Assembly: GCF_011043545.1 (NCBI RefSeq)
Contig: NZ_JAAKGP010000003.1
Span: 124,001 to 188,000, forward strand
Length of the DNA: 64,000 nucleotides
Direction: 5' to 3'
Source of the DNA: Rhodobacter sp. SGA-6-6
Lineage (GTDB): Bacteria; Pseudomonadota; Alphaproteobacteria; Rhodobacterales; Rhodobacteraceae
Made by a program: the position numbers and the translations under genes. Below are positions 2,637-50,643 of the stretch, in pieces (within the stretch, counting starts at the first letter, position 1; each line of letters begins with the position of its first letter). Under the pieces are notes generated by a model. The model made no database searches. It had not been told where the DNA came from and worked only from the letters and a program-made list of their open reading frames with translations.

Positions 2637-2850
2637 TGGCGAAGGCGCGTGCCTTCGCCACGCCGCAACATTTCCCTCTGTCCGGCCGGGTGCCCAAGCA
2701 CCCGGCCAGCGCCCGCCCCGCCCTTGGGCCAAGCGCTTCTCGCCCGCCGGGCCAGGCGCTGGCCTCTCGGGTTTAGGGCCACCACCGTCTCCGGGTGCTG
2801 CGCCGCGCACGGGCGGGGGCGAGGCAGTGCCTCGCCTTTTTCCCGCCCGG
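2637..2850 (+). repeat. Structured repeat element, copy A
   Basis: First of five dispersed copies (others at 12567, 19646, 26034 and 50430). Stem 1 is TGGCGAAGGC/GCCTTCGCCA at 2637-2660 with a GCGT loop. Stem 2 is GGCCGGGTGC/GCACCCGGCC at 2684-2707. Stem 3 pairs GGCCAGCGCC at 2704-2713 with GGCGCTGGCC at 2755-2764 and so competes with stem 2 for GGCC. Stem 4 is CGGGCGGG...CCCGCCCG at 2810-2849 enclosing GGCGAGGC/GCCTCGCC with a five-T bulge. The stem-4 end lies 32 nt from the stop codon of the leftward pseudouridine synthase gene. Function unknown. Confidence 0.85.
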
Positions 2851-2881
2851 TCGGTCCGTTGAGATGATCGTCGTTGCCCGC

Positions 2882-3997
2882 CTATGTTCCGCGCCGGGGC
2901 CTTGGCGCGTCACGGCCCGGGCCGCGGGGCTTGGCCGGACCGCTGCGGCCCGAGGGTGCGGCGGAGCGCTTCGGCGGAGGTTTGGCCTCGCCGCGGGCGG
3001 CGGGCTTGGCGGTTGGTTTCGGGGCCGGTTTCGCCCCGGCTTTCCCGGTCGCCGGGCGGGTGGGCTTGCCGCCCGGATCGGGCGTGACCGCCTCCTTCCA
3101 GGCCCGGGCCAGCGCCTTCACCCCGTCGCCGGACCTGGCGGTGCGGGGCAGGGCGGTTTTTCCGGCCGTGGCCCGCGCGGGTTTCGCCCCTGCCTTTCCC
3201 GCCGGTTTCGCTGCCTGCGAGGCCGGTTTGCGGGCGGGCCTGGCGGGGGCCGCATCGTCGCCTGCCATCGCTCCCAGCTGTTCGCGCAGCACCTTGGGAC
3301 GCACCTCCTCCACCTCGCCCGGCCGCATGTCGTTCAACCGGAACGGGCCGTAGGAGACCCGGATCAGCCGGTTGACGTAAAGGTCGATGGCGTTCATCGC
3401 CCGCCTGATCTCGCGGTTCCGGCCCTCGCGCAGGCCCACCGTCAGCCAGGCGTTGGCCCCCTGGATGCGGTCCAGCGTGACCTGCATCGGCTGGAACCTT
3501 TCCCCCTCGATGGTGATGCCCTTGCGCAAAGGCTCCAGCTGGTCGTCGGTCGGGTTGCCGTTGACCCGCACCCGATACTTGCGCAGCCAGCCGGTGGAGG
3601 GCAGCTCGAGCCGCCGCTTCAGTTCGCCGTCGTTGGTCAGCAGCAGCAGCCCCTCGGAGTTCAGGTCCAGCCGGCCGACGGACATCACCCGCGGCATGTC
3701 CCCGGGCAGGTGGTCGAAGACGGTGTCGCGGCCCTTCTCGTCGGCGGCCGAGGTCACCAGCCCCTCGGGCTTGTAGTAGAGCCAGAGCCGGGCGGGTTCC
3801 TCCTCCGGCAGCGGCTTGCCCGAGACGGTGATGCGGTCCTTCTCCGTCACGTTCAGCGCCGGCGAGGCGATGACCTTGCCGTTGACCGTGACCTCGCCGG
3901 CCTCGATCAGCCGCTCGGCCTCGCGGCGCGAGGCGATGCCGCGGCGCGACAGGACCTTGGCGATGCGCTCGCCTTCAGGGGTTGCTTTGTCGGCCAT
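2882..3997 (-). CDS. rluB: 23S rRNA pseudouridine synthase, RluB/RluE type, with long basic tail
   Basis: 371 residues from ATG 3997, preceded by AAAGG. Residues about 10-55 form an S4-like RNA-binding domain (RIAKVLSRRGIASRREAERL). Residues about 70-235 form the RsuA/RluB catalytic domain with the GRLDLNSEGLLLLTNDG motif; Asp111 is the expected catalytic aspartate. It should isomerise a uridine in 23S rRNA. Beyond about residue 250 the protein is a 120-residue Ala/Lys/Pro/Arg-rich low-complexity tail, common in alphaproteobacterial members and probably an RNA-binding extension. The reading frame is open further upstream, but the S4 domain fixes this start. Repeat copy A lies just after the stop. 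Confidence 0.9.
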   Translation of the reverse strand: MADKATPEGERIAKVLSRRGIASRREAERLIEAGEVTVNGKVIASPALNVTEKDRITVSGKPLPEEEPARLWLYYKPEGLVTSAADEKGRDTVFDHLPGDMPRVMSVGRLDLNSEGLLLLTNDGELKRRLELPSTGWLRKYRVRVNGNPTDDQLEPLRKGITIEGERFQPMQVTLDRIQGANAWLTVGLREGRNREIRRAMNAIDLYVNRLIRVSYGPFRLNDMRPGEVEEVRPKVLREQLGAMAGDDAAPARPARKPASQAAKPAGKAGAKPARATAGKTALPRTARSGDGVKALARAWKEAVTPDPGGKPTRPATGKAGAKPAPKPTAKPAARGEAKPPPKRSAAPSGRSGPAKPRGPGRDAPRPRRGT

Positions 3998-4052
3998 GAA
4001 CGGAAACCTTTGCGCGGGGCGGTTGACCCCGGGGGTTTTCCACCCCCGGAAC

Positions 4053-4083
4053 CCCCGGAGAGTATTTGGGCCAAGATGAAGAC
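4053..4083 (+). repeat. GGAGTATTTGG-type short repeat overlapping tadA start
   Basis: CCCCCGGAGAGTATTTGGGCC followed by AAGATGAAGA belongs to the short intergenic motif family also seen near 9038, 9087, 16895, 40356, 40518, 48600, 48639 and 63895. Here its 3' part contains the first possible ATG of the tRNA adenosine deaminase gene. Confidence 0.7.
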
Positions 4084-4540
4084 GCAATCGGGGTTCCGGT
4101 CCTTCATGGAGATCGCGCTGGAAGAGGCGCGGGCAGCGGGCGCGCGGGGCGAGGTGCCGGTGGGCGCGGTCGTGGTCGCGCCTTCCGGGCAGGTGGTCGC
4201 CCGGGCGGGCAACCGCACGCGGGAACTGGCGGACCCTACGGCGCACGCCGAGCTGCTGGCGATCCGCGCCGCCTGTGCGGCGGCGGGGTCCGAGCGGCTG
4301 CCGGGCCATGACCTTTACGTCACGCTGGAGCCCTGCCCGATGTGCGCCGCCGCGATCTCCTTCGCCCGGGTGGCGCGGCTCTACTACGGGGCGGCGGACC
4401 CGAAGTCGGGCGGGGTGGCCTTCGGCGCCCGGGTGTTCAGCCACCCGCAATGCCACCACCGGCCCGAGGTCTACGACGGCATCGCCGCGGCCGAGGCCGA
4501 GGCGCTGCTGAAGGGCTTCTTCGCCGGGCGGCGGGAGTAG
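4076..4540 (+). CDS. tadA: tRNA-specific adenosine deaminase TadA
   Basis: 154 residues from ATG 4076. It deaminates adenosine-34 to inosine in tRNA-Arg(ACG). The zinc deaminase signature is complete: His57-Ala-Glu59 in TAHAELLAIR, then Pro-Cys87-Pro-Met-Cys90 in LEPCPMCAAAI. The C-terminal FFAG region completes the fold. Length is normal. The first ATG lies inside a copy of the GGAGTATTTGG intergenic repeat, so the true start may be Met11 (ATG 4106), whose following sequence MEIALEEAR aligns better with the family's usual N-terminus. It is divergent from the pseudouridine synthase gene. Confidence 0.93.
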   Translation: MKTQSGFRSFMEIALEEARAAGARGEVPVGAVVVAPSGQVVARAGNRTRELADPTAHAELLAIRAACAAAGSERLPGHDLYVTLEPCPMCAAAISFARVARLYYGAADPKSGGVAFGARVFSHPQCHHRPEVYDGIAAAEAEALLKGFFAGRRE

Positions 4541-4543
4541 GCG

Positions 4544-5239
4544 CTAGAACCGGATCGGGTCCAGCACCTCGTGCTCGATCACCTCGGTGCCGGGCGGCAG
4601 GCCGGCGCGCAGGGCGGCGGCGTCCTGCGCCAGCAGCGGGAAGGTCTTGTAATGGCAGGGGATCACCCAGCGGAAGTTGAAGTATTTCCGTGCCGCCCAA
4701 GCCGCGCGCTGCATGTCCATGGTGTAATGGCCGCCGCAGGCGAGGATGCCGATGTCGGGGCGGTGGTATTCGCCCATCCAGCCCATGTCGGCCATGATGT
4801 CGGTGTCGCCCGAGACATAGATCGTATGGCCCTCGCCCGCGATCATGAAGCCCGCCTCCGACCCGGCCGGCAGCAGCCCCTTCCCGCCGAAGTCGATCGA
4901 GGCGGAATGGGTGGCGTTGACCATGGTCACCTTCGCCCCGCCGCAGTCGATGGTGCCGCCCTTGCCGAAGCCGATGGCCTGCGCGCCCTGGCCGTTCAGC
5001 CATTCGGACAGCTCATGGATGCAAGCGACCGGGATGCCCTTCTCCGCGGCGATGGCGGCGGCGTCCGAGGCGTGGTCGCCATGGGCATGGGTCAGAAGGA
5101 CATGGGTCGCGCCCTCCAGCGCCTCGGCGCGGCGGGCGGCGGGGAACATCGGGTTGCCGGTCAGCCAGGGATCGACCAGCAGCACGGCCTCTTCGATGGT
5201 AATGCGAAAGCCGGAATGGCCAAGCCAGGTGATCTGCAT
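4544..5239 (-). CDS. UPF0173 metal-dependent hydrolase (metallo-beta-lactamase fold)
   Basis: 231 residues from ATG 5239. The metal-binding motif His51-x-His53-x-Asp55-His56 (THAHGDHASD) is intact. Further ligands appear in NATHSAS, SGDTD and the terminal PCHYKTFPLLAQ. Length and motifs fit the UPF0173/YtkL family of small cytoplasmic metallo-hydrolases, whose natural substrate is unknown. It converges on tadA with a 3-nt gap and is divergent from gatC. The start is the ATG that opens directly with the strand MQITWLGHSGF typical of the family. Confidence 0.88.
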   Translation of the reverse strand: MQITWLGHSGFRITIEEAVLLVDPWLTGNPMFPAARRAEALEGATHVLLTHAHGDHASDAAAIAAEKGIPVACIHELSEWLNGQGAQAIGFGKGGTIDCGGAKVTMVNATHSASIDFGGKGLLPAGSEAGFMIAGEGHTIYVSGDTDIMADMGWMGEYHRPDIGILACGGHYTMDMQRAAWAARKYFNFRWVIPCHYKTFPLLAQDAAALRAGLPPGTEVIEHEVLDPIRF

Positions 5240-5384
5240 GGGGTCGTCTCCGCTGGTTGTCTGCGAGGCGCGCAAGGTTAGCGTCCCCGTCCGGCCATGC
5301 AACCCCGAAGCGGAGCGGTGCTTGCAGGGCCGGGCGGGGGCGGCTAAACGGGGCCGGTCATCCGCCCGAACCCCGAGGGTCCCC

Positions 5385-5672
5385 ATGTCGATCGACATCG
5401 AAACCGCGCGCAAGGTCGCCAAGCTGGCCCGGATCCGGGTCGAGGAGGCGGCGCTGCCGAAGCTGGCCGAGCAGCTGTCCGGCATCCTGACCTTCATGGA
5501 ACAGCTGAACGAGGTGGATGTGGAGGGCGTGGAGCCGATGGTCAGCGTCACGCCGATGCGGCTGAAGCGGCGGGCGGATGTGGTGACTGACGGCAATATT
5601 CAGGCCCAGGTCCTGAAGAACGCGCCGGAGGCGCGCGAGGGGTTCTTTGCCGTGCCGAAGGTGGTGGAATGA
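5385..5672 (+). CDS. gatC: Asp/Glu-tRNA amidotransferase subunit GatC
   Basis: 95 residues, normal for GatC. It stabilises GatA in the amidotransferase that converts Glu-tRNA(Gln) and Asp-tRNA(Asn) to the correct amino-acyl forms. Family hallmarks are visible: [22 protein letters not shown] at the N-terminus and [11 protein letters not shown], then [16 protein letters not shown] at the C-terminus. Its TGA overlaps the ATG of gatA (ATGA), so the two are translationally coupled. gatB is not in the window. Confidence 0.95.
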
Positions 5673-7153
5673 ACGCGAACAGCCTGACGATCGCCGCGGC
5701 GCGGGATGCGCTGCGCAAGGGGGAGCTCTCCGCTGTCGACCTGACCATGTCCTGCCTGACGGCGATGGATGCGGGCGATGCGCTGAACGCCTTCGTCTAC
5801 AAGACCCCCGAGATCGCGCTGGATCAGGCGCGGGCGGCGGATGCCCGGCTGGCCGCGGGCGATGCGCCCGCCATGTGCGGCATCCCCCTCGGCATCAAGG
5901 ACCTGTTCTGCACCAGGGGCGTGCCCTCGCAGGCGGCGTCGAACATCCTCAAGGGCTTCCGGCCGGAATACGAATCCACCGTGACCACGCGCCTGTTCGA
6001 GGCCGGGTCGGTGATGCTGGGCAAGCTGAACATGGACGAATTCGCCATGGGCTCGTCCAACGAGACCTCCTGCTACGGCAATGCGGTGAACCCCTGGCGG
6101 CGCGGCAACGACGATGCCGCGCTGACGCCCGGCGGGTCCTCGGGCGGCTCGGCGGCGGCGGTGGCGGCGGACCTTTGCCTGGCGGCGACCGGGACGGACA
6201 CCGGCGGCTCGATCCGCCAGCCGGCGGCCTTCACCGGCATCGTCGGGATCAAGCCGACCTATGGCCGCGTCTCCCGCTGGGGGGTGGTGGCCTTCGCCTC
6301 CTCGCTGGATCAGGCGGGGCCGATGACCAAATCGGTGCGCGACGCGGCGATCATGCTGGGGGCGATGGCGGGCCACGACCCGAAGGATTCGACCAGCGCC
6401 GACCTGTCCGTCCCGGATTTCGAGGCGGCGCTGACCGGCGACATCCGCGGCAAGGTGATCGGCATCCCCAGGGAATACCGCATGGACGGGATGCCGGCCG
6501 AGATCGAGGCGCTGTGGCAGAAGGGCATCGCCATGATGCGCGACGCCGGGGCCGAGATCCGCGACATCAGCTTGCCGCATACGAAATACGCGCTGCCCGC
6601 CTATTACGTCATCGCGCCGGCCGAGGCGTCCTCGAACCTCGCCCGCTACGACGGGGTGAAATACGGCCACCGGGCCAGGCTGGCGCAGGGCGACGGCATC
6701 ACCGAGATGTATGAGAAGACCCGGGCCGAGGGCTTCGGCGCCGAGGTGCAGCGCCGCATCCTGGTCGGCACCTATGTGCTGTCGGCGGGCTTCTACGACG
6801 CCTATTACAACCGCGCCCGCAAGGTCCGCGCCCTGATCAAGCGCGACTTCGAGACCGTCTTCGCCGAAGGCGTCGACGCGATCCTGACCCCGGCCACGCC
6901 GTCTTCGGCCTTCGGCCTGGGCGAGATGGCCAATGCCTCGCCGGTGGAGATGTATCTGAACGACGTCTTCACCGTGACGGTGAACCTGGCCGGCCTGCCC
7001 GGCGTCTCGGTCCCGGTGGGCTTGGACGCGCAGGGGCTGCCGCTGGGCCTGCAGCTGATCGGGCGGCCCTGGGACGAGGCCGGGCTGCTCAATCACGCCC
7101 ATGTGCTGGAGCGTGCGGCCGGATTTGTTTCCAAACCGGCAAAATGGTGGTAG
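5669..7153 (+). CDS. gatA: Asp/Glu-tRNA amidotransferase subunit GatA
   Basis: 494 residues, full length. This is the amidase subunit that releases ammonia from glutamine for transamidation of misacylated tRNA. The amidase-signature triad can be read as Lys77 (GIKDLF), the cis-Ser in [11 protein letters not shown] near residue 157, and the nucleophile Ser181 in [11 protein letters not shown]. The C-terminus has [10 protein letters not shown] and [10 protein letters not shown] motifs typical of GatA. It overlaps gatC by 4 nt. Confidence 0.96.
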
Positions 7154-7195
7154 GGGGCGGCGAAAAGCCGTTCCCGCATTCCGCATGAGGCAGTG

Positions 7196-8592: not shown

Positions 8593-8599
8593 CCCCCTC

Positions 8600-9000
8600 G
8601 CGCGGATGGCCGGATGACCGCGGCCCCGGACTTGATCCGGGGGCGAGGAAAGTCCGGACTCCATGAGGCAAGGGTGCCGGGTAACGCCCGGCGGGGGCGA
8701 CCCCAGGGAAAGCGCCACAGAGAAGAGACAGCCCCGGTTCGCCGGGGTGATGGTGAAACGGTGGGGCAAGAGCCCACCGCGGGACGGGCAACCGGACCGG
8801 CACGGCAAGCCCCACCCGGAGCAATGCCGAATAGGGGCCTCGCGCGGGGCTGGTCCTGAAAGGGATACCGCCGCAGGGATGCTTCAGCCCGAGAGGCCCG
8901 GGTTGGCAGCTGGACCCCCTCCGCAAGGCGGGGGCTAGAGGAATGGTCATCCATGGCGGGCAACCGCCGGGACAGAATCCGGCTTACAGGCCATCCGCGC
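8600..9000 (+). ncRNA. rnpB: RNase P RNA, bacterial type A
   Basis: The catalytic RNA that matures the 5' ends of tRNAs. The 5' end GCGCGGATGGCC (8600-8611) pairs exactly with GGCCATCCGCGC (8989-9000), closing the P1 helix. The conserved core segments are present: GAGGAAAGTCCGGACTCC near 8644-8661, AGGGAAAGCGCCACAGA near 8705-8721, GGTAAACGG-like joining regions, and ACAGAATCCGGCTTACAG near 8971-8988. At about 400 nt it has the usual length for an alphaproteobacterial type A RNA. A promoter is visible just upstream. Confidence 0.97.
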
Positions 9001-9037
9001 GTTTTCCGGCCGAGGCCGGGGGGCCAGCCCCCCGGGC

Positions 9038-9217: not shown

Positions 9218-9273
9218 GCGGGCTTCAAGGATTTCCGGGGAAACGCCGTTTCTCCGAGGCAGGAGAGACGACT

Positions 9274-11689: not shown

Positions 11690-12541
11690 ATGCCGCGCAA
11701 CCTCGACCTTGCCGCCCTGCGCTCTTTCGTCACCGTGGCCGAGGTGGGCGGAGTGACCCGCGCCGCGGGCTTCCTGAACCTCACGCAATCCGCCGTCTCG
11801 ATGCAGATCAAGCGGCTGGAGGAGAGCCTCGGCCAGCTGCTGTTCCTGCGGGCGGCGAAGAAGCTGGTGCTCTCGCCCGAGGGCGAGCAGCTCTTGTCCT
11901 ACGGCCGCCGGATGCTGGCGCTGAACGACGAGGTGCTGTCGCGCTTCGCCACCGGCGCCTTCGAGGGCGAGATGCGGCTCGGCGTGCCCTGCGACATCGT
12001 CTATCCGGCGATCCCGGGCATCCTGAAGCGGCTGGCGCAGGCCTATCCGCGGGTGCGGGTGAACCTGATGTCCTCCTTCACCCTGCCGATGAAGGAGGAT
12101 TTCGCCCGCGGCGAGTTCGACGTGATCGTGACCACCGAGATGGCGCCCGACCCGGGGGCCGAGGTGCTGGGGGCGCGGCCGCTGGTCTGGATCGGCGCGC
12201 CGGGCGGCACCGCTTGGCAGCGCCGGCCGCTGCGGCTGGGGTTCAAGGACAGCTGCATCTTCCGCCCCCGCACCCAAGCCGCGCTGGACGAGGCCGGCAT
12301 CCCCTGGGAACTCGCCACCGGCGGCGAGAGCGAGCAGGCGGTGGAGGCGACGGTGGCCGCGGACCTTGCCGTCTCGGTGCGGCTGGAGGGCGGCATTCCC
12401 GCCGGCTGCGCGCCGATCCCCGGCGACAACGCCCTGCCGAAACTGGGCGAGATGAAGATCGGCCTCTACCGCAACCAGCGCCGGCGGGACGAGGTGATGG
12501 AACTGCTGCTGTCGGAACTGCGCTGCGCCTATGGCGGGTGA
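11690..12541 (+). CDS. LysR family transcriptional regulator
   Basis: 283 residues. The N-terminal winged helix (residues about 5-65) is typical: LAALRSFVTVAEVGGVTRAA, then LNLTQSAVSMQIKRLEE. The rest is a periplasmic-binding-protein-like effector domain. It is divergent from the DUF1127 gene, and the shared interval 11570-11689 contains ATTCAT/ATGAAT half-sites suitable for a LysR T-N11-A operator. Repeat copy B begins 26 nt after its stop. The effector is unknown. Confidence 0.9.
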   Translation: MPRNLDLAALRSFVTVAEVGGVTRAAGFLNLTQSAVSMQIKRLEESLGQLLFLRAAKKLVLSPEGEQLLSYGRRMLALNDEVLSRFATGAFEGEMRLGVPCDIVYPAIPGILKRLAQAYPRVRVNLMSSFTLPMKEDFARGEFDVIVTTEMAPDPGAEVLGARPLVWIGAPGGTAWQRRPLRLGFKDSCIFRPRTQAALDEAGIPWELATGGESEQAVEATVAADLAVSVRLEGGIPAGCAPIPGDNALPKLGEMKIGLYRNQRRRDEVMELLLSELRCAYGG

Positions 12542-12566: not shown

Positions 12567-12779
12567 TGGCGAAGGCGCGTGCCTTCGCCACCGCGCAACG
12601 CTTCCCCTTGTCCGGCCGGGCCTTCAAGGCCCGGCCAGCGCCCGCCCGCCCGCCCGGGCGGGCGCTTCTCGCCCGCCCGGGCGGGCGCTGGCCTCTCGGG
12701 GTCATGTGCCACCACCGTCTCCGGGCGAAACCGTCCGCACGGGCGGGGGCGAGGCAATGCCTCGCCTGTTCTCGCCCGG
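12567..12779 (+). repeat. Structured repeat element, copy B
   Basis: Same four-stem layout as copy A. Stem 1 is identical (12567-12590). Stem 2 has changed to GGCCGGGCCTT/AAGGCCCGGCC (12614-12636), keeping full pairing. The inner part of stem 3 is a perfect GGGCGGGCG/CGCCCGCCC hairpin with a CTTCT loop around 12655-12680. Stem 4 is GGCGAGGC/GCCTCGCC inside CGGGCG/CGCCCG. The stem-4 end is 20 nt from the stop of the leftward rraB gene. The other end faces the LysR stop. Confidence 0.85.
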
Positions 12780-18308: not shown

Positions 18309-18647
18309 TCTTTACTCCGTAAGGCGCCTTCCCGGCGCGGGGTCCCCACCTTCAGATAAGCATAAATCGTGCCAAAATCCGCATTTTCTGAAAAGAATCG
18401 GAGATGAAGCAAATGCCTGTCAAAACCTGTCCATTTGGACAGTGGCAATTCCACGTGTGTATAACAACTTGCGGCCGGTCTGTGGACAACACTCTGGCGC
18501 GCCAAGGGCCTTCGGGACTCGCCTTCCGCGGGTTTTCCGTTGTGCAGTTTCATTATGCACATATGATTGCGAAATGCAATGAAGCTGGCCTCTGGCTCCG
18601 GCTGCGGCCGCAGGCTAGCCTGCCGGCACCGCAAGAGGGAGAGCGAG
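18309..18647. promoter_or_regulatory. AT-richer divergent control region
   Basis: 339 bp without a gene between the leftward Xre gene and the rightward oxidoreductase. It holds a perfect palindrome CTGTCCA-TT-TGGACAG at 18427-18442. On the minus strand, TGGCAC-GATTT-ATGC (18374-18360) is close to the sigma-54 consensus and lies 52 nt before the Xre start. A TTGACA also occurs on the minus strand near 18418-18423. The AT content contrasts with its surroundings. Confidence 0.5.
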
Positions 18648-19622
18648 ATGAAGGCCTGGCTTGTCGAGACCCTGGGTCAGCCGCCCCGGCTGGCCGAGTT
18701 GCCGCGTCCGGTGCCGGGGCCGGGCGAGGTGCTGCTGCGGGTCGCCGCGGCGGGGCTGAACTTCGCCGACCTGCTGATGGCCGAGGGAAAATACCAGGAC
18801 CGGCCGGGTCTGCCCTTCATCCCCGGCATGGAACTGGCGGGGGTGGTGGAGGATGCGGGACCCGGTGCTGCCTTCGCCCCCGGCGCGCGGGTGGCGGCGC
18901 ATGTCCGCTGCGGCGCCTTCGCCGAATGGGCGGTGGTGCCGGCCGACCGGCTGCTGGCGCTGCCCGAGGCGATGCCCTTCGACCATGCCGCCGGGTTCCA
19001 GATCGCCTATGGCACCTCGCATCTGGCGCTGGCCGGCAAGGCCGGGCTGCGGCCGGGCGAGACGCTGTTCGTCACCGGCGCGGCCGGGGGCGTCGGGCTG
19101 ACGGCGGTGGAGATCGGGCATTTGCTAGGTGCGCGGGTCATCACCCAGGTCCGCGGGGCGGAGAAGGCGGCGCTGGCCCGGGCGGCCGGGGCGGAGGAGG
19201 TGATCGACGCCGGCCACCCCGACCTGAAGGCGGCGCTGCGCGATCTGGGCGGGGTGGATGTGGTCTACGACACCGTGGGCGGCCCGGGCTTCGAGGCGAG
19301 CTTGCGCGCCACCCGGCCGGGCGGGCGGATGCTGGTCATCGGCTTCGCCGGCGGCGAGGTGCCGAAGGTGCCGCTGAACCAACTGCTGGTGCGCAACGTC
19401 AGCGTGATCGGCTTCTGGTGGGGCGGCTACCTGTCCTTTGCGCCGCAGGAGCTGACCGGCTCGCTGGAGGTGCTGCTGCGCTGGTATGCCGAGGGGAAGC
19501 TGCGCCCGCATGTCTCTGCCGCGCTGCCCTTCGACCGCCTGCCCGAGGGGCTGGAGGCGATCCGCAGCCGCAAGGCGACGGGGAAGATCGTGCTGACGGT
19601 GGGGGAGGGATCGGCGGGGTGA
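18648..19622 (+). CDS. NADPH:quinone oxidoreductase family protein (zinc-independent MDR)
   Basis: 324 residues from ATG 18648, preceded by GAGGGAGAGCG. The GroES-like N-terminal domain (PGPGEVLLRVAAAGLNFADL) and the Rossmann motif VTGAAGGVGLTAVEIG are those of QOR-type medium-chain reductases; zinc-ligand cysteines are absent. It probably reduces a quinone or an enone with NADPH. Close relatives are often annotated acryloyl- or crotonyl-CoA-like reductases, so the substrate is uncertain. It converges on guaD, with repeat copy C between them. Confidence 0.87.
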   Translation: MKAWLVETLGQPPRLAELPRPVPGPGEVLLRVAAAGLNFADLLMAEGKYQDRPGLPFIPGMELAGVVEDAGPGAAFAPGARVAAHVRCGAFAEWAVVPADRLLALPEAMPFDHAAGFQIAYGTSHLALAGKAGLRPGETLFVTGAAGGVGLTAVEIGHLLGARVITQVRGAEKAALARAAGAEEVIDAGHPDLKAALRDLGGVDVVYDTVGGPGFEASLRATRPGGRMLVIGFAGGEVPKVPLNQLLVRNVSVIGFWWGGYLSFAPQELTGSLEVLLRWYAEGKLRPHVSAALPFDRLPEGLEAIRSRKATGKIVLTVGEGSAG

Positions 19623-19645: not shown

Positions 19646-19858
19646 TGACGAAGGCGCGTGCCTTCGTCACATCGCGCCGCTGCAACCTGGACCGGCCGGG
19701 TGCCCAAAGCACCCGGCCAGCGCCCGCCCGCCCCTCGGCGGGCGCTTCTCGCCCGCCCGGGCAGGCGCTGGCCTCTGTGGTCTCGTGCTGCCACCGTCTC
19801 CGGGTGCAACCGCCGTGCACGGGCGGGGCGAGGCAATGCCTCGCCTTGTCCCGCCCGA
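19646..19858 (+). repeat. Structured repeat element, copy C
   Basis: Stem 1 is TGACGAAGGC/GCCTTCGTCA (19646-19669); compared with copies A, B, D and E both arms changed (G-C to A-T), so pairing is kept. Stem 2 is GGCCGGGTGC/GCACCCGGCC (19694-19718). The inner stem-3 hairpin is GCGGGCG/CGCCCGC. Stem 4 is GGCGAGGC/GCCTCGCC within CGGGCGG/CCGCCCG. The stem-4 end lies 17 nt from the guaD stop codon. Confidence 0.85.
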
Positions 19859-19875
19859 TCCGACGGCAGCGCCGC

Positions 19876-25434: not shown

Positions 25435-25995
25435 ATGATCCGCCCCTTCGCCCTTGCCCTCTGCCTCACCTCGCCCGCCTTGGCCGACTGCCTGCCGGAG
25501 GGCGCGCTGCCCGCGAAACTGACCTACGATTCCGGCGCCGTGGTCGAGGTGCTGGGGCGGGAGGGCGAGGCGCTGCGCTATCGCCAGACCATCGTCGAGA
25601 CCGGCAAGCAGGTGGAGATGACGGTCCATGCCGGCATCTTCACCGTCAGCGCCCTGCGCGACGGCGAGGGCGCGGTGTTCGACTGGACCACCGGCCTGCC
25701 GGCGCTGGCGGAGCTGGTGCCGGGGGCGACGTTCCACGAGGAGGCGATGCTGACCACGCCGGGCTTCCTGCCGCCGCGGCCCTTCACCACCGACCTGGAG
25801 ATCCTGGGGATGGAAGAGATCGAAGTGGCGGGCTGCAAGGTGCAGGCGCTGAAGATGGTGGTCAGGAACCGCGAGGCCGGCAAGGACCTGGGCGAGATCA
25901 CCAAATGGCTGCACCTGCCTTCGTTGCTGACCCTGCGCAGCGAGGTGCGCGAAGGCGAGGCGATGCGGGCGCAGGAAGTGGTGGCGATGGAGTAG
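25435..25995 (+). CDS. Secreted protein, paralogue of the one at 23205
   Basis: 186 residues from ATG 25435, with AGGAG seven bases upstream (an in-frame TTG at 25429 is less likely). The signal peptide MIRPFALALCLTSPALA is followed by DCLPEG, with the cysteine just after the predicted cleavage point as in the paralogue. Shared features: the Tyr-Asp-Ser-Gly core, REGEALRYR, and DLEILGMEEIEVAGCKVQAL aligned to the paralogue's EIEVIG/DCRYEAV region. Family not recognised. A short GC hairpin (GGGCGgggcttCGCCC) and then repeat copy D follow the stop. Confidence 0.72.
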   Translation: MIRPFALALCLTSPALADCLPEGALPAKLTYDSGAVVEVLGREGEALRYRQTIVETGKQVEMTVHAGIFTVSALRDGEGAVFDWTTGLPALAELVPGATFHEEAMLTTPGFLPPRPFTTDLEILGMEEIEVAGCKVQALKMVVRNREAGKDLGEITKWLHLPSLLTLRSEVREGEAMRAQEVVAME

Positions 25996-26033: not shown

Positions 26034-26242
26034 CGGGCGGGACAAGGCGAGGCACTGCCTCGCCCCCGCCCGTGCGCGACGCATCAGCCGGAAACTTGTC
26101 AGCACGAGACCTCGGGAGGCCAGCGCCCGACCCGGCGGGCGAGAAGCGCCCGCCGGGGGCGGGGCGGGCGCTGGCCGGGCCTTTGGGGCCCGGCCGGTCC
26201 AGTTGAAACGGTGCGCTGTGGCGAAGGCGATGGCCTTCGCCA
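26034..26242 (-). repeat. Structured repeat element, copy D (reverse orientation)
   Basis: Read on the minus strand it has the same order of stems. Stem 1 is TGGCGAAGGC/GCCTTCGCCA with loop CATC at 26219-26242. Stem 2 is GGCCGGGCC/GGCCCGGCC with an AAA loop around 26174-26196. Stem 3 holds the inner hairpin CCGGCGGGCG/CGCCCGCCGG. Stem 4 is CGGGCGGG/CCCGCCCG at 26034-26072 around GGCGAGGC/GCCTCGCC. The stem-4 end is 38 nt from the stop of the rightward secreted-protein gene. This is the only copy in this orientation, and its neighbour is also the only rightward one, so the arrangement matches the rule. Confidence 0.82.
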
Positions 26243-26267: not shown

Positions 26268-27602
26268 TCAGTGCGCAATCGCCTCCTGCCGGACGAACAT
26301 GTTGCCCCAGGCGCGGTCGATCAGCTCGGGGGTCATCTGGTAGGGGATGCCCTCGAATTCGCAGACCGAGATCATCTGGTCGATCAGGAAGACCGGCATG
26401 TAGTTGGCGTAATTGTTGCCGATGGTCGGGAACTTGACCTTCAGGAGATACATCAGCGCCTTCTCGTCCAGCGGCATCTTCTTCTTCTTCGCCACCATGG
26501 CGAAGATCTTGAGGAAATTCTGCTGGTCCGGCCCGTCGATCTTGATCTTGAAGAAGATCCGCCGCAGCGCCGCGCCGTCGAAGATCTCGTTGGGGTGGAA
26601 GTTGGTCGAGAAGATCACCAGCGTGTCGAAGGGCACGGTGAACTTCTCGCCCGATTGAAGGGCGAGGATGTCGCGGCTTTCCTCCAGGGGCACGATCCAG
26701 CGGTTGACGATCTTCTGCGGCGGCTCGGCCTGGCGGCCGAGGTCGTCGATGATGAAGATGCCCCCGGTCGCCTTCAACTGCAAAGGCGCCTGGTAGGTCC
26801 GCGCGGTGGGGTTGTAGGCGAGGTCCAGCATGTCCAGCGACAGTTCGCCCCCGGTGATCACCGAAGGCCGCTCGCAATAGACATAGCGCTGGTCGAAGCG
26901 GTTCGAGGTGCGGCGCAGGCTGTTCGGATCGTCCACCACGGTTTCCGCGGCAGAATGCACGATCGGGTCGTAGACCGAGATCACCTGGCCGGAATATTCG
27001 ATGGCGCGGGGGACGTAGACCTTGTCGCCCAAGGCGGCGCGGATGCCGTGCGAGATCGAGGACTTGCCGTTGCCCGGCGGGCCATACATCAGGATCGACC
27101 GGCCCGAGGTCACCGCCGGGCCGAGGTTGCCGATCAGGTCGGGCGGCAGGATCAGGTGGCCCATGCCGCTGAGCAGCTGGTCGCGCGTCAGCTTGATGTT
27201 GCGCACCGACTGGCGCTTGATCTGCTCGCGATACTGGTCCAGCGGCACCGGCACCGCGCCGTAGTATTCCGACTGCGACAGCGCATCCAGCGCCCGGGCC
27301 TTGCCGCCGTCGGTCAGCTGGTAGCCCATCTCGTTGCCGGAGGTGGCGTGCAGCGTCCCGGTCGCCTCGATCATCCGCTGGCCGCGGGCCATGTCGACCA
27401 GGTCCTGGGTCAGCGGCACCGGCAGCGAGATTGCCCGCGCGATCTCGGACACCAGCGACAGGTTGGTGCGGAACATCGTCTTCAGCAGGATGTCGCGCAT
27501 CATCACCGTGTTGATGCCGACATCGGCCAGGGTGCGCGGAGAGGGCGGCGGCTGCACGCCCGATTGCACGCCCTGCGCCGCCGGATTGACCTGCACGTTC
27601 AT
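26268..27602 (-). CDS. AAA family ATPase next to the Tad locus
   Basis: 444 residues. Walker A is GPPGNGKSS near residue 180, Walker B is GIFIIDDLG near 265, and STNF serves as a sensor. An N-terminal region of about 150 residues has PRTLADVGINTVMMRDILLK and LARGQ-type helices. The protein resembles MoxR/ATPase-like proteins found beside Flp/Tad pilus genes in Rhodobacteraceae. It may remodel or regulate the pilus machine, but its function is not established. It is the last leftward gene, 67 nt after cpaA. Repeat copy D lies between its stop and the convergent secreted-protein gene. Confidence 0.75.
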   Translation of the reverse strand: MNVQVNPAAQGVQSGVQPPPSPRTLADVGINTVMMRDILLKTMFRTNLSLVSEIARAISLPVPLTQDLVDMARGQRMIEATGTLHATSGNEMGYQLTDGGKARALDALSQSEYYGAVPVPLDQYREQIKRQSVRNIKLTRDQLLSGMGHLILPPDLIGNLGPAVTSGRSILMYGPPGNGKSSISHGIRAALGDKVYVPRAIEYSGQVISVYDPIVHSAAETVVDDPNSLRRTSNRFDQRYVYCERPSVITGGELSLDMLDLAYNPTARTYQAPLQLKATGGIFIIDDLGRQAEPPQKIVNRWIVPLEESRDILALQSGEKFTVPFDTLVIFSTNFHPNEIFDGAALRRIFFKIKIDGPDQQNFLKIFAMVAKKKKMPLDEKALMYLLKVKFPTIGNNYANYMPVFLIDQMISVCEFEGIPYQMTPELIDRAWGNMFVRQEAIAH

Positions 27603-42367: not shown

Positions 42368-42453
42368 GCCCGCGTGGTGGAATGGTAGACACATGGGACT
42401 TAAACTCCCTGGGCCGCAAGGCCGTGCCGGTTCGAGTCCGGCCGCGGGCACCA
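42368..42453 (+). tRNA. tRNA-Leu (anticodon UAA)
   Basis: Acceptor arm GCCCGCG (42368-42374) pairs with CGCGGGC (42443-42449), followed by A and encoded CCA. The anticodon loop CTTAAAC has TAA at 42401-42403. The extended variable arm (TGGGCCGCAAGGCCGT) marks a class II tRNA, and the T-arm CCGGTTCGAGTCCGG is canonical. Identity elements and arm length fit leucine. Confidence 0.97.
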
Positions 42454-45014: not shown

Positions 45015-45050
45015 GGCGCTATCCTGCCGCCGCGAGCCGAGGAGAGCGCC

Positions 45051-48000: not shown

Positions 48001-48497
48001 ACCGCTTCACCCGCGCCGAAGCGCCGGGCGCGGGCCGCTCCGGCGCCCCGGCGGAGGAGGCCGAGGTCGCGCAGCGCCTCGCCACCCCCGCGGCCGCGCA
48101 GCCGGTGGAGCCGCTGGACCTGCCCGGCCCCACCGGCGAATCGAACCGCCTGCGCTTCGAGCCGCGGGCGCCGCTCCTGTGCCTCGGCCCGGGGGCGGAG
48201 GCGGCGCTGGCGCAGGCCGATGCCGTCCGCCGCCTCGGCGGCCGGGCGGTCGAGGCCCCGGACCTGCGGCCCGACGCGCTGGCCCGGCTGCAAGGCTTCT
48301 CCGGCGCGCTGTGGTGGGGGGCGGCCGATCCGGCGCGGGCCTATGTGCAGGCGCTGGCCGGGCGCGAGGGGCCGATCCTGCCGCTGATCGGCGGCCTGCC
48401 CGACCGCGCCCATGTCGCGCACGAGCGCCACATCTGCATCGACACCACCGCCTCGGGCGGCAACGCCCGCCTGCTGGCCGCGGTGTCCGAGGACTGA
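45051..48497 (+). CDS. putA: Bifunctional proline dehydrogenase/glutamate-semialdehyde dehydrogenase PutA
   Basis: 1148 residues. It oxidises proline to glutamate in two steps. The FAD proline dehydrogenase barrel (about 60-480) carries VRLVKGAYWDAEVKRAQV, then YPQFATHNAHTVAAI and GMGERLHDIV. The aldehyde dehydrogenase (about 510-990) has general base Glu768 in AETGGLNAMV and nucleophile Cys802 in GQRCSALR. A C-terminal region of about 150 residues is extra to the minimal form. No N-terminal ribbon-helix-helix DNA-binding domain is visible, so unlike the Escherichia coli protein it should not repress its own gene. Confidence 0.96.
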   Translation: MTDLTPWDIIAKGSLTDEEALVRRLLDQAALGPDDRAAIAAAGADLVRRIRGATKPGLMEVFLAEYGLSTDEGIALMCLAEALLRVPDAETMDALIEDKIAPSDWGRHLGRSASSLVNASTWALMLTGKVLDDREPGVAGHLRAAVKRLGEPVIRSAVSRAMKEMGRQFVLGETIDKAMARAREMEAKGYTYSYDMLGEAARTEADARRYHLAYSRAITAIAAAAKGSDIRANPGISVKLSALHPRYEVAKEARVMEELVPRVRALAGLARAAGLGFNIDAEEADRLALSLKVIEAVLADPALKGWDGFGVVVQAYGRRCGAVIDWLYALAQRLDRRIMVRLVKGAYWDAEVKRAQVLGLESFPVFTRKQATDVSYIANARKLLAMTDRIYPQFATHNAHTVAAILHMAEGLPGGALSYEFQRLHGMGERLHDIVHTDRGTRCRIYAPVGAHRDLLAYLVRRLLENGANSSFVNQIVDEDVPAERVAACPLTRIEEMAAIPSAAVTPPPVLFPGRRNSKGLDLTSAADLEAVEAARAPFRDALSEASPLIAGRPAGGERTEVLNPATGALVGHVLAASAADTDTALRLAEPWAAGPAERAEVLNRAADLYEQNIGEIFALLSREAGKTLSDALAELREAVDFLRYYASGIKGLAHPPLGTFTCISPWNFPLAIFTGQIAAALAAGNAVLAKPAPQTPLIAALGVKLMHRAGVPETALQLLPGGGEVGAMLTSDPRVDGVCFTGSTATAQKIRRAMAENLSPTAPLIAETGGLNAMVVDSTALPEQAVRDIIASAFQSAGQRCSALRCLYVQEDVAETISEMLSGAMEELALGDPWDLSTDVGPLIDAQAQAAIRAYVDQARAEGRLLKQLPAPEGGHFLPPAVISVPGIEAMQREIFGPVLHLATFKAEEVGQLVDRINATGYGLTFGLHTRIDDRVQEMTARLAVGNAYVNRNQIGAVVGSQPFGGEGMSGTGPKAGGPDYLHRFTRAEAPGAGRSGAPAEEAEVAQRLATPAAAQPVEPLDLPGPTGESNRLRFEPRAPLLCLGPGAEAALAQADAVRRLGGRAVEAPDLRPDALARLQGFSGALWWGAADPARAYVQALAGREGPILPLIGGLPDRAHVAHERHICIDTTASGGNARLLAAVSED

Positions 48498-48511
48498 GCC
48501 GCCGTCACAAG

Positions 48512-48666
48512 GAGCGGCTGCCGCCGCAAGCCTTTGTCTCTGCGGCTGGGGAGTCTCCTTGCGGCTGCTGTCGACTGATGGGGGCATTCTGCCCCCAAAC
48601 CCCCTGAGAGTATTTGGATCAAGAGGAAGCGGCATGTCTTCATCTTGGCCGAAATACTCCGGGGGC
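48512..48666. repeat. Extended repeat arm plus inverted GGAGTATTTGG pair after putA
   Basis: From 15 nt after putA's stop. The arm 48512-48596 with hairpin GGGGGCA/TGCCCCC (48580-48596) matches 16970-17050 in inverse. Then CCCCTGAGAGTATTTGGATC plus AAGAGGAAG (48600-48630) and its opposite CATCTTGGCCGAAATACTCC plus GGGGG (48639-48666) form a tight inverted pair. It probably terminates or insulates putA. Confidence 0.6.
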
Positions 48667-48732
48667 CCGGGGGCTGGCCCCCGGTCGCCGGCCGGGGATT
48701 GACCGCCCGGCAAGGATAGGGAAGGCTCGCGC

Positions 48733-49473
48733 ATGTTTCCGATCCGCGACCACAACCCCTCGGGCGGCACGCCTTTCGTCACGCTGGCGCTGATCGCCGT
48801 CAACGTGCTGGTCTTCCTCGGCTATTACACCACGCTGGAGGGCTGGCCGCTGATGCGGTTCTTCATGGAATGGGGGCTGGTGCCGGCGCGGCTGGCGCAG
48901 GGGCAGGGCTACGGGACCCTGCTGACCCATATGTTCCTGCACGGCGGCTGGATGCACCTGATCGGCAACATGCTGTTCCTGTGGATCTTCGGCGACAACC
49001 TGGAAGAGGAGATGGGCCGCATCGGCTTCCTGCTGTTCTACCTCGGCAGCGGGCTGGCCGCCGCGGCCTTGCAGATCGCCGCCGATCCCGGATCGGGGGC
49101 GCCGATGGTCGGGGCCTCGGGCGCGGTGGCCGGGGTGATGGGGGGCTATCTGCTGCTCTACCCCAAGGCCCGGGTCGACGTGCTGCTGTTCTTCGTCATC
49201 TTCTTCCGGGTCTTCGCGCTGCGGGCCTGGATCGTCCTCGGCCTCTGGTTCGGGCTGCAACTGGTCTCGGGCGTCTCGACCCCGACCGAAGGCGGCGGCG
49301 TGGCCTATTGGGCGCATATCGGCGGCTTCCTGGCCGGGCTGGTGCTGGTGCTGCCGGTCTGGCTTCGCCGCGGCGGGCGCGGCTACTGGCGGCGCACCCA
49401 TGGCGAACCGCCGCACCCGGAGGCGAAATACCCGCTGAGCCCGAGCCGCATCCCGCGCGTGCCCCGGCGCTAG
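48733..49473 (+). CDS. Rhomboid family intramembrane serine protease
   Basis: 246 residues with six to seven membrane helices. The catalytic pair is Ser129 in GASGAVAGVMGG and His195 in AYWAHIGGFLAGL. The conserved LHGGWMHLIGNMLFLWIFGD precedes the serine, as expected for rhomboids. It should cut membrane proteins within the bilayer; no substrate can be named. The C-terminal tail is basic and ends in GEPPHPEAKYPLSPSRIPR-type sequence. Confidence 0.94.
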   Translation: MFPIRDHNPSGGTPFVTLALIAVNVLVFLGYYTTLEGWPLMRFFMEWGLVPARLAQGQGYGTLLTHMFLHGGWMHLIGNMLFLWIFGDNLEEEMGRIGFLLFYLGSGLAAAALQIAADPGSGAPMVGASGAVAGVMGGYLLLYPKARVDVLLFFVIFFRVFALRAWIVLGLWFGLQLVSGVSTPTEGGGVAYWAHIGGFLAGLVLVLPVWLRRGGRGYWRRTHGEPPHPEAKYPLSPSRIPRVPRR

Positions 49474-49478
49474 AAGTC

Positions 49479-49529
49479 CGATTTTTCGCCGAAAAATCGT
49501 GAAACGATCCTTCGCCGAAGGATCGTTTC
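49479..49529. terminator. Two adjacent dyads between rhomboid and suhB genes
   Basis: CGATTTTTCG/CGAAAAATCG (49479-49499) and GAAACGATCCTTC-GCC-GAAGGATCGTTTC (49501-49529, 13-bp arms) lie between convergent genes. The second dyad overlaps the suhB stop codon (49530-49528). They look like a bidirectional terminator. Confidence 0.7.
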
Positions 49530-50316
49530 AGCCGCGGATCACCTTGCGGAAGGGCTCGAACAGCGCCTCGTTGCCAAGGATCACCGAACCCGAGTCCATC
49601 GGGTCCTGCCCCTCGCGGATGCCCGAGACCATGCCGCCGGCCTCCTTCACCAGCAGCAGGCCCGCCGCCATGTCCCAAGGGCCGAGTTCGCGTTCCCAGA
49701 AGCCCTCGTAACGCCCGGCGGCGACATAGGCCATGTCCAGCGAGGCCGCGCCCCAGCGGCGCAGGCCGGCGCAGGCGGGCATCAGCGCCGCCAGGTCCTT
49801 CAGCATTGCGGGCAGGGTCTTCTTGGCGCCGAAGGGCACGCCGGTGGCGAAGACCGCCTCGTGCATCTGCCGCCGGGCCGAGACGCGCAACCGGCGGTTG
49901 TCGTTCAGCCAGCAGCCGGCGCCCTTCTCGGCCCAGAACATCTCGTCCTTGGCCGGGTCGTAGACCACGGCCGAGACGATCTCGCCCTTGTGCTCCAGCG
50001 CGATCGAGATCGCCCAATGCGGCATCCCGTGCAGGAAGTTGGTGGTGCCGTCCAGCGGGTCGACGATCCAGCGCCGGGTCGGGTCCTGCCCGGCGGTCTC
50101 GCCGGTCTCCTCGCCCAGCCAGCCATAGGTCGGCCGGCCGCCCATCAGCTCTTCCTTGATGATCCGCTCCGCTTCCCGGTCGGCCTTGGTGACGAAGTCG
50201 CCCGGACCCTTGGCCGAGACCTGGAGGTTCTCGACCTCGCGAAAGTCCTTCACCAGGCTGCGCGCGGCGCGGCGGGCGGCCTTGATCATCAGGTTCAGGT
50301 TGGCGCTGCCTTGCAT
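49528..50316 (-). CDS. suhB: Inositol-1-monophosphatase SuhB
   Basis: 262 residues, full length. IMPase metal sites: GEETGET near residue 70, WIVDPLDGTTNFLHGMPHW near 88 and WDMAAGLLLVKEAGG near 210. It hydrolyses inositol monophosphate; SuhB homologues also act in RNA polymerase and ribosome biogenesis. The encoded GTTNFLHG form separates it from the hisN product at 17061. Its stop lies inside the terminator dyad. Repeat copy E begins 114 nt upstream of its start. Confidence 0.93.
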   Translation of the reverse strand: MQGSANLNLMIKAARRAARSLVKDFREVENLQVSAKGPGDFVTKADREAERIIKEELMGGRPTYGWLGEETGETAGQDPTRRWIVDPLDGTTNFLHGMPHWAISIALEHKGEIVSAVVYDPAKDEMFWAEKGAGCWLNDNRRLRVSARRQMHEAVFATGVPFGAKKTLPAMLKDLAALMPACAGLRRWGAASLDMAYVAAGRYEGFWERELGPWDMAAGLLLVKEAGGMVSGIREGQDPMDSGSVILGNEALFEPFRKVIRG

Positions 50317-50429
50317 CGGCGGACTCCTCGGATGGAGCCCCGGCCTCTAGCGGCAAAATCGCGGCTTGAAAAGCCCGGGGCGGCATTGCCGTTGGGTAGG
50401 GACCGGAACCCGTCCGGCTATCGGCTCAG

Positions 50430-50643
50430 TGGCGAAGGCCATCGCCTTCGCCACGGCGCAACGCTTCCCCTTGTCCCGGCCGGGCCTTAAAGGCCCGGCC
50501 AGCGCCCGCCCCGCCCTCGGGCCAAGCGCTTCTCGCCCGCCGGGTCGGGCGCTGGCCTCTCGGGTTTCAGGTTGCCATCGTTTCCGGGTGCAATCGTCGC
50601 GCACGGGCGGGGGCGAGGCAGTGCCTCGCCGTCTCCCGCCCGA
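50430..50643 (+). repeat. Structured repeat element, copy E
   Basis: Stem 1 is TGGCGAAGGC/GCCTTCGCCA with loop CATC (50430-50453). Stem 2 is GGCCGGGCCTT/AAGGCCCGGCC (50478-50500). Stem 3 is GGCCAGCGCCCG/CGGGCGCTGGCC, 12 bp. Stem 4 is CGGGCGGG/CCCGCCCG (50604-50642) around GGCGAGGC/GCCTCGCC. The stem-4 end is 25 nt from the stop of the leftward metR-like gene. This 351-bp gap holds no other gene. Confidence 0.85.

Follow-up and report, generated by a model that had tools for sequence, protein, structure and literature searches.

The genome of Rhodobacter sp. SGA-6-6 holds an estimated 240 copies of a large ordered repeat of about 210 nt with four hairpins in one fixed order. The copies take their direction from the replication fork rather than from the genes, and their variable parts reassort. 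Five full-length copies lie in the window, the 64 kb stretch of DNA analysed here. Our tentative reading, at a probability of roughly 45%, is that these are non-autonomous hairpin repeats of a new, BIME/REP-like family, which are spread and reshuffled as DNA on the lagging-strand template. New here are the replication orientation, the placement near gene 3' ends, the contrast between stems and loops, the unlinked variable sites, the GTAG REPs at fixed offsets and the scarcity of copies in relatives, where the three sites that could be compared lack the element. REPs, BOX, ERIC and other hairpin repeats were described decades ago, and we know of no settled account of their spread or retention. 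Two open questions become testable with this repeat, namely propagation on the lagging-strand template and exchange of segments between copies at the stems.

Five copies in the window and the genome-wide family

Aligned with about 35 nt of flank each, the five window copies (Table 1) have a mean column identity of 79%. A covariance model was built from 60 sequences (the five window copies, 48 others of the same genome and seven from relatives). On the window it gave exactly five strong full-length matches (163-206 bits, E 3e-39 to 8e-50), which sit inside the model and match by construction; no other place in the window matches strongly, the next-best match (21 bits) being copy 4 on the opposite strand. 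Alignment and search bear out the sequence-only reading of this DNA, which had described five copies sharing one order of stems. The stems that it named are correct, and stem 4 is resolved as a small hairpin, GGCGAGGC/GCCTCGCC, nested within an outer CGGGCGGG/CCCGCCCG. Its interpretation, a real structured intergenic family with a constant layout, holds but is incomplete, since the five belong to about 240 genome copies (the core matches 262 times, its reversed control 22 times) and are thus part of a high-copy dispersed repeat. Three contigs (C1, C12 and C23; 1.81 of 4.29 Mb) gave 113 matches, 97 of them full length, and in this part of the genome the repeat is nearly always full length. The copies are intergenic, as had been stated: with genes called by a simple in-house script, 1 of the 113 matches shares over 30 nt with a predicted gene.

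Table 1. Window copies, resolved stems and neighbouring genes
Feature	Position	Strand	Details
Copy 1	2637..2850	+	Leading-strand orientation; ~31 nt to 3' end of pseudouridine-synthase-like gene 2882-3997 (-)
Copy 1, stem 1	2637..2660	+ (search listed palindrome's other strand)	TGGCGAAGGC / GCCTTCGCCA, 4-nt loop; model positions 1-24
Copy 1, stem 2	2684..2709	+ (listed as palindrome's other strand)	Model positions 47-71
Copy 2	12567..12779	+	Leading-strand orientation; convergent gap, ~25 and 20 nt to both gene 3' ends
Copy 2, left neighbour	11690-12541		LysR-type gene
Copy 3	19646..19858	+	Leading-strand orientation; convergent gap, ~23 and 18 nt to gene 3' ends
Copy 3, neighbour	18567-19622	+	Zinc-binding dehydrogenase
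Copy 3, neighbour	3' end 19876	-	Amidohydrolase
Copy 3, stem 3	19719..19769	+ (listed as other strand)	Outer AGCGCCCG/CGGGCGCT-type arms; model positions 72-122
Copy 3, stem 3 inner hairpin	within 19719..19769		GGCGGGCG-CTTCT-CGCCCGCC
Copy 3, stem 4	19820..19860	+ (listed as other strand)	Outer arms enclose GGCGAGGC/GCCTCGCC hairpin; model positions 170-211
Copy 4	26034..26242	-	Sole lagging-strand copy of the window; convergent gap between 25435-25995 (+) and 26268-27602 (-)
Copy 5	50430..50643	+	Leading-strand orientation; 113 nt upstream of inositol-monophosphatase gene 49528-50316 (-)
Copy 5, other neighbour	50668-51576	-	LysR-type gene, 3' end ~25 nt away

The copies lie close behind genes, at a median distance of 35 nt from gene 3' ends and with 94 of 144 adjacent 3' ends within 45 nt; divergent gaps are avoided, convergent ones being enriched relative to them (odds ratio 9.5). 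Such placement would suit a transcript-level 3' element, whose hairpins would end or protect the mRNAs of the flanking genes from both sides like REPs, and it is in keeping with this that a gene's own hairpin of at least 7 bp precedes the element at 23 of 144 gene 3' ends against 197 of 633 other 3' ends (within 60 nt, the scanned lengths being unequal). However, insertion tolerance behind genes yields equal placement, and an intrinsic terminator would have a T-run behind a G+C hairpin, read in the sense of transcription, whereas no T-run follows stem 1, the T stretch after stem 4 is variable (alignments, by eye) and the element's orientation ignores transcription. At one site, C23:83516, the neighbouring gene retains a terminator-like hairpin of its own (by eye). 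We regard a transcript-level element as quite unlikely; a transcript role may be a side effect.

Orientation along the direction of replication

Replication direction was taken from GC skew together with the polarity of GGGNAGGG (49+/158- on C12, 176+/47- on C23, 75+/121- on C1). By this measure 82 of 97 full copies are in leading-strand orientation (p 2e-12), namely 31 of 34 on C1, 24 of 29 on C12 and 27 of 34 on C23, and the element shares this orientation with GGGNAGGG. Near co-directional genes, the ratio of leading to lagging is 23:6 for sense and 20:2 for antisense copies; orientation follows replication, irrespective of the direction of neighbouring genes. On nine further contigs, 26 of the 29 copies among the matches listed have the majority orientation of their own contig (21.1 at random, p 0.002). 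Elsewhere, judged from match coordinates alone, orientation looks two-blocked in one other genome (G085) and mixed in a second (G015).

The four-hairpin fold is backed by covariation, with both-sided change in 16 pairs (0 of 500 shuffles) and, for instance, a G-C pair replaced by A-T, a compensated change, in stem 1 of copy 3. Copy 4, the one copy folded, lies far below its shuffles both as DNA and as RNA (z -7.7 each). Changes in the stems are mostly full Watson-Crick replacements altering both sides (64 cells), against 9 one-sided cells (G-U steps). This weakens an RNA reading, 84 unpaired cells among 3162 notwithstanding, and so does an orientation that tracks replication, not transcription. 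Together these observations suggest a DNA-level repeat tied to replication, rather than an ordinary RNA gene.

We infer that the element acts as DNA. On fork passage its top strand would become single-stranded on the lagging-strand template and the four hairpins would form; there a putative enzyme that processes single strands in an HUH-like manner, yet lies outside the Y1/TnpA-REP family (of which no member was found), would copy or exchange the element, or else the replication and recombination machinery would do so. Such copying or exchange would account for the strand bias, the missing target duplications and the mosaic copies, the last because the invariant stems would serve as anchors for template switching. 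The stems would stay intact because copying or conversion takes only copies with intact hairpins, and survival would be mainly behind genes because neither promoters nor coding frames are broken there.

The orientation common to the element and GGGNAGGG is also consistent with a host-selected chromosome element, its copies kept in place and its orientation read by a DNA-binding or translocating factor (FtsK-like, or at a polar fork or nucleoid site). Copies are, moreover, scarce around dnaA: in the dnaA-containing interval of C1 (440-674 kb) 2 of 75 gaps carry the element, compared with 29 of 161 in the rest of C1, a split picked after the data were seen. Plain insertion does not explain this scarcity, which speaks against propagation. 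We consider a host-selected element unlikely, for reasons that lie in the truncated copies and in the relatives (below). A related proposal, rather unlikely in our view, is that freely recombining, replication-polarised four-hairpin elements mark replication direction along the chromosome and are held in place by selection, a putative factor reading them as folded single strands on the lagging-strand template; the element would then be the structured counterpart of the short polar motifs of the FtsK type.

Conserved stems, reassorting loops and insertion sites

Across 96 copies, variants occur at a rate of 1.3% in stem positions and 20% in other positions, a difference of about 16-fold that would also be expected of host selection. 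Of 68 copies measured, 63 are 208-213 nt long, so the constant length and variable loops first noted in the five copies extend to the family. Linkage between variable sites more than 10 nt apart is near background, essentially none; loop 1 is uncorrelated with either linker, and the two linkers are only slightly correlated with each other (9 of the 96 copies, having no anchor, were left out of the linker test). Variable segments reassort almost freely between copies, as in a sexual population. Two further helices were considered and rejected: the flanks would not form a closing helix, real partners pairing no better than shuffled ones (90 copies), and the long-range linker 1/linker 3 helix predicted by folding has equal duplex energy with real and shuffled partners (88 copies). 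As a family, linkers 1 and 3 are somewhat complementary (-17.6 vs -14.8 kcal/mol for scrambled letters).

Two observations bear on propagation against selection in place. The most similar pair among 68 copies reaches 90.6% and no pair is near-identical; this absence of recent duplicates argues for host selection and against propagation, since a recent burst should yield them. Nine truncated copies show changes at 26 of 526 stem and 114 of 514 other positions. They were hand-picked from 41 partial rows, after dropping opposite-strand matches that fell within or overlapped a copy counted before, the nearly full C12:73753 and three rows of another repeat (C12:123607, C12:212110 and C23:120884). 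That good stems persist in them argues for constraint at copying and against host selection; however, their stem change is 2.5-4 times that of full copies, as in-place selection predicts and contrary to propagation.

The ends are sharp and without target duplication, the search for which stayed at chance level (96 copies), and the two flanks of a copy pair with each other no better than shuffled flanks (90 copies). IS200/IS605 transposition likewise makes no target duplication. An ordinary MITE that has decayed and is bounded by terminal inverted repeats would match the non-autonomous, high-copy, intergenic and lineage-specific character of the repeat, as well as a weak CGGYTT/RARCCG-like complementarity in base frequencies directly outside the ends, but the chance-level duplications and flank pairing, together with stems that are not decaying, make it very improbable. 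Comparison with an empty relative was possible at three sites, at one of which synteny is weak (one gene has 51% identity): in G011 one gap measures 73 nt where this genome has 417, and another 30 nt where it has 289, and the gap in L187 measures 94 against 372. At a further locus, L153, compared with copy 4, the gap is 691 nt and no element was found; this comparison was too uncertain and was left out.

GTAG REPs stand at fixed offsets from the element ends, typically 14-18 nt outside stem 1. A BIME would be an intergenic mosaic in which REP units are combined with further conserved motifs; of the 88 non-divergent gaps that house a full element, 17 also contain a GTAG REP, compared with 11 among the 555 lacking one (p 3e-9), and most copies have no such REP. 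These REPs are not replication-oriented (20 of 42 on the leading strand). The element's own consensus has no GTAG or CGTC tag at a stem foot; CGTC does occur in the linker before stem 4.

Relatives, mobilising enzymes and known families

The covariance-model search of other genomes that had been proposed at the outset matched 36 of 146 genomes, the own one included, at E <= 0.01, with scores above 100 bits in five (among the best 16 candidates at most per genome). Exact core matches number 151 here, and each of the 12 other genomes in the genus has 0-3 (among the matches listed), and relatives' copy numbers are lower bounds where the best 13-16 candidates were scored. A scan of 285 gaps (620 kb of G011) found no 14-mer shared by more than 7 of them. 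Both results count against host selection, as does the decay of a small family in G062 (stems 8% and other positions 20% variant; 12 copies). The few copies in relatives mostly have different stem letters with the pairing retained, a pattern that speaks for host selection.

Among 20 loci with a relative's element, the flanks of eight matched own genes within 1.81 Mb. The element at L009 lies beside the same gene as copy 5 (inositol-monophosphatase side) and that at L115 beside the same gene as copy 4 (26268-27602 side), each in the same relative orientation; by a rough estimate chance alone would produce about one case of this kind, and we therefore do not claim inherited sites. L295 was rejected as a shared site, its element lying at the gene's opposite end. 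Carriage of the repeat on mobile replicons was considered and rejected. A phage collection searched with copy 5 gave no match; one viral contig carries the core near its end, and two Leisingera plasmids match 30% of copy 5. A core-only Rhodobacteraceae repeat has the stem 2/stem 3 core in common with the element and is without the flanking stems 1 and 4 at most loci viewed (by eye). Among 148 other family genomes, one per genus, 51 gave between 1 and 10 pattern matches to it; with the reversed control matching once in 19 genomes, single core matches may be chance. No name for it was found in the literature searched.

Y1 transposase (PF01797), and with it a cognate TnpA-REP/RAYT gene, was found in 0 of 5 genomes including the own one (positive control, 5 of 14 genomes). 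The RVT_1 search gave one match in the genome, a defence-type DRT2 with its own RT-13 RNA, and a link of the repeat to this reverse transcriptase was rejected. That neither search found a mobilising enzyme argues against propagation. The Rfam RT-15 group is associated with reverse transcriptases, and a retro-copied structured RNA related to it seems highly improbable. In short stretches covering copies 2, 4, 5 and L115, the full RF03018 model matched copy 4 (26.4 bits, E 1.5e-4) and copy 5 (19.3 bits, E 0.011) weakly, but the gathering score is 82 bits, copy 2 and L115 gave no match in equally short stretches, and neither did the whole-window or 12-locus searches (stricter filters). The matches carry a bias correction of 20 bits with one model stem largely missing, and the sole reverse transcriptase found is the DRT2.

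No Rfam family reaches its gathering score on the element, and no published family with such a layout was noticed in the portions of the literature searched, in agreement with the sequence-only reading, which had recognised none. By the features tested the element does not match a known REP or MITE family, the identity that would have told against that reading; yet REP/BIME is the closest kind. Among structured intergenic families, ERIC, YPAL and BOX (~80-170 nt; tables of PMC2267715) resemble the element by description; the word 'replication' is absent from the main text of that paper, leaving no orientation claim for comparison. IS200/IS605 elements have end hairpins and are coupled to the lagging-strand template (PMC6006769, in excerpt). 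The element resembles them in these respects, including the orientation bias, and in the missing target duplication, but has four hairpins, not two, in a genome in which no Y1 transposase was found, unlike an IS200/IS605-derived miniature element. REPs are high-copy intergenic palindromes, often species-specific, that lie mainly between co-directional or convergent genes, downstream of coding regions, and CGTC REPs are reported without a dedicated transposase (excerpted text of PMC3733652); BIMEs are composites of REP-type parts (PMC2817692, in excerpt). The element differs from a REP, a palindrome of 20-40 bp with an unpaired GTAG/CGTC tag at one end, in its unit of about 210 nt with four ordered hairpins, in its untagged stem foot and in being replication-oriented, unlike the GTAG REPs of the same genome, and it is like REPs and BIMEs in forming high-copy intergenic palindromes behind genes.

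Architecture and base pairing of the repeat

The five stretches that the sequence-only reading had grouped together align end to end over their whole length and form one family, which confirms that reading's observation; the strong matches of the family covariance model in the window are these five copies, with none besides. The sharply conserved stretch of the four-hairpin repeat spans TGGCGAAGGC to CCCGCCCG, and beyond its sharp ends lies a weakly conserved zone of about nine bases on each side. None of the copies matches an Rfam family at gathering score. The only Rfam matches in the window are RNase P and tRNA. Between predicted genes, window 52607-52745 (-) resembles the Brucella sRNA CI27 (30.8 bits, E 0.0085, below the gathering score of 59.8).

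Parts of the four-hairpin repeat and coordinates of other features
Feature	Location	Strand	Description or source
Stem 1			24 nt; 5'-most part of the repeat
Linker after stem 1			about 20-25 nt; before stem 2
Stem 2			directly before stem 3
Stem 3			long; contains CTTCT-loop hairpin
Linker before stem 4			about 45 nt
Stem 4			hairpin nested within hairpin
Bacterial class A RNase P RNA	window 8602-9002	+	Rfam
tRNA gene	window 42368-42450	+	Rfam
Second repeat (CCGGCCAGCGCCCGACCG...GGGCGGGCGCTT)	C12:123516-123607, C12:212040-212110, C23:120815-120884		Rhodobacter sp. SGA-6-6
Second repeat (CCGGCCAGCGCCCGACCG...GGGCGGGCGCTT)	G011:C6:49839 and 50051		two copies about 212 nt apart

The structure is demonstrated by covariation among 60 sequences, 53 from SGA-6-6 and seven from relatives. 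Paired cells make up 97.3% of 3162, with changes on both sides in 16 of 53 pairs (64 cells); one-sided changes occur in nine cells. A further 84 cells are unpaired, in part because the relatives are shifted by one base at the alignment's right end. In a shuffle test, none of 500 replicates equals or exceeds the observed value on any of five measures, and structures slid along the alignment pair in just 40-47% of cells. The relatives' letters are mostly different yet pairing in both stem 1 (TGGCGGCGAC, TGGCCGAGGC, TGGCAGAGGC) and stem 4 (GGAAACGC or GGAAAAGC); one copy in the relative G011 (locus L009) has the same stems as SGA-6-6. Inside SGA-6-6 itself, stem 1 of window copy 3 carries a compensated change. 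Full stem-pair replacements greatly exceed G-U steps, an excess that suggests a better fit to DNA than to RNA. An extra helix joining the two linkers, predicted by folding without covariation support, was set aside. Stem 3 has an insert of about 66-73 nt in its apical loop at two loci of relatives (L267, L270).

Amplification in one lineage

Copy counts demonstrate a lineage-specific amplification. In the 4.29-Mb SGA-6-6 genome, of which the window is C23:124001-188000, the core motif (stem 2 plus stem 3, ≤2 mismatches) has 118 occurrences on the forward strand and 144 on the reverse, versus 11 + 11 for the reversed control, from which we estimate about 240 elements. Contigs C1, C12 and C23 (1.81 Mb) hold 113 matches, 97 of them full length, which merge into 108 sites. 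The longer exact core occurs 151 times versus 0 in the control and, within the genus, is present in three of 13 genomes (SGA-6-6, 151; G011, 3; G010, 1). A DNA search of 60 genomes matches nine including SGA-6-6, mostly via the stem 2-3 core, and 52 of 149 genomes (one per genus) contain the core pattern, with 174 in SGA-6-6, ≤10 in any other and 19 single matches of the reversed core across the set. The covariance model, with at most the best 16 candidates per genome scored under stricter filters, matches 36 of 146 genomes at E 0.01; among the candidates scored, values above 100 bits occur only in SGA-6-6 (at least 16, all of those scored), G062 (6), G011 (3), G024 (1) and G010 (1). G062 has 14 places by covariance model and 11 distinct sites by stem-4 pattern, and decay is further advanced in its copies (8% of stem positions and 20% of others variant; 12 copies). 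Across 620 kb of G011, no 14-mer is shared by more than 7 of 285 gaps. Two SGA-6-6 sites lie in gaps of 417 and 289 nt, versus 73 and 30 nt in G011; at C23:83516 the gap is 372 nt, versus 94 nt at locus L187, with weaker synteny. These relatives' gaps count as three empty sites. A second, different repeat is common to SGA-6-6 and G011 (table).

Placement and replication orientation

The repeat is placed towards gene 3' ends. The 113 matches have 226 flanking gene ends; 3' ends account for 151 of these (median distance 35 nt; quartiles 23 and 66) and 5' ends for 75 (median 113 nt). Among gaps ≥40 nt once the element is removed, full copies occupy 36/151 convergent, 50/597 co-directional and 8/252 divergent gaps (convergent versus divergent, odds ratio 9.5, p 2e-10). 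Similar placement is reported for REPs too (PMC3733652). The repeat may in addition act at transcript ends. In other Rhodobacteraceae, a core-only form with stems 2 and 3 (L013, L016, L018, L020 and G011:C7:173195-173269) seems to have a start codon nearby in some loci, an impression by eye that contrasts with the 3'-end placement in SGA-6-6.

SGA-6-6 also holds a classical GTAG-tagged palindrome, GTAG-GGCGGGGTTCACCCCGCC, with 42 copies in C1, C12 and C23 (1.81 Mb; none in the window). For 26/42 of these REPs, a full element lies no more than 120 nt away. The usual distance is 14-18 nt beyond stem 1 and 10-18 nt beyond stem 4, and inverted pairs are seen in several cases; with divergent gaps excluded, the REPs occur in 17/88 element gaps versus 11/555 others (p 3e-9). 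They have no orientation bias (20/42 on the leading strand). No Y1/TnpA-REP transposase was found in SGA-6-6 or four other genomes. Contig C13 encodes a defence-type reverse transcriptase (L304:1174-2469, -; DRT2 match, E 3e-129) adjoined by an Rfam RT-13 RNA (L304 2484-2552, -). Of four short stretches searched, two show a weak likeness to Rfam RT-15 that stays far under the gathering score and is not relied on.

Replication direction was assigned from GC skew plus the polarity of GGGNAGGG, a motif known from E. coli FtsK work. The four-hairpin repeat is strongly oriented, with 82/97 full copies in leading-strand orientation (p 2e-12): 31/34 on C1, the least clear arm (GGGNAGGG 75 versus 121; final 220 kb mixed), 24/29 on C12 and 27/34 on C23. 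On nine further contigs, 26/29 among the copies listed follow their own contig's majority orientation (p 0.002). Only 52-60% of genes are on the leading strand, and between co-directional genes the bias is 23:6 for sense and 20:2 for antisense elements, with no difference (p 0.44). Base composition does not explain the bias, because the C-rich top strand of the element (GC skew -0.087) opposes the G-rich leading strand. In the dnaA-holding part of C1 (440-674 kb), 2/75 suitable gaps are occupied versus 29/161 elsewhere on C1 (p 7e-4, for a split chosen after seeing the data). The literature searched yielded no report of such orientation bias for hairpin repeats.

Shuffling among copies and relation to known repeats

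Any two of 68 copies are 67-91% identical (mean 82%), and no pair comes close to identity. Across 96 copies, deviations affect 1.3% of stem positions and 20% of positions elsewhere in the repeat. Between variable sites ≥10 nt apart, mean r-squared is 0.001-0.02 (chance, 0.01), the exception being a compensatory set of sites in stem 3. In 87 of the 96 copies, loop 1 shows no correlation with linker 1 (253/500 permutations as high) and with linker 3 (191/500), and the two linkers are slightly correlated (r 0.07, 22/500). Given this near-absence of correlation between segments, the behaviour of the copies is close to that of a single recombining pool, demonstrating shuffling. In nine truncated or gapped copies, hand-picked out of 41 partial rows, changes affect 26/526 stem positions (15/466 minus the most decayed copy) and 114/514 others; the corresponding values for full copies are 1.3% and 19%. 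Because truncated copies keep their stems too, selection acting in place on whole elements is not the sole reason for the low stem change. A replication-polar function under in-place selection is nonetheless a serious rival, and stem change in truncated copies is 2.5-4 times that of full ones. We infer that the acting form would be single-stranded DNA on the lagging-strand template, and that exchange between copies would take place at the invariant stems. Single-stranded activity on the lagging-strand template is documented for IS200/IS605 elements (PMC6006769).

No description of the repeat was found in the literature searched, where subscription journals mostly fell outside scope, and "Rhodobacter" is absent from the main text of four of the papers (PMC12306157, PMC3733652, PMC2817692, PMC2267715), which likewise yielded no description. 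The four-hairpin repeat belongs to a known kind, the dispersed bacterial hairpin repeats, yet differs from them in its size, its ordered four-hairpin build and its replication-bound orientation.
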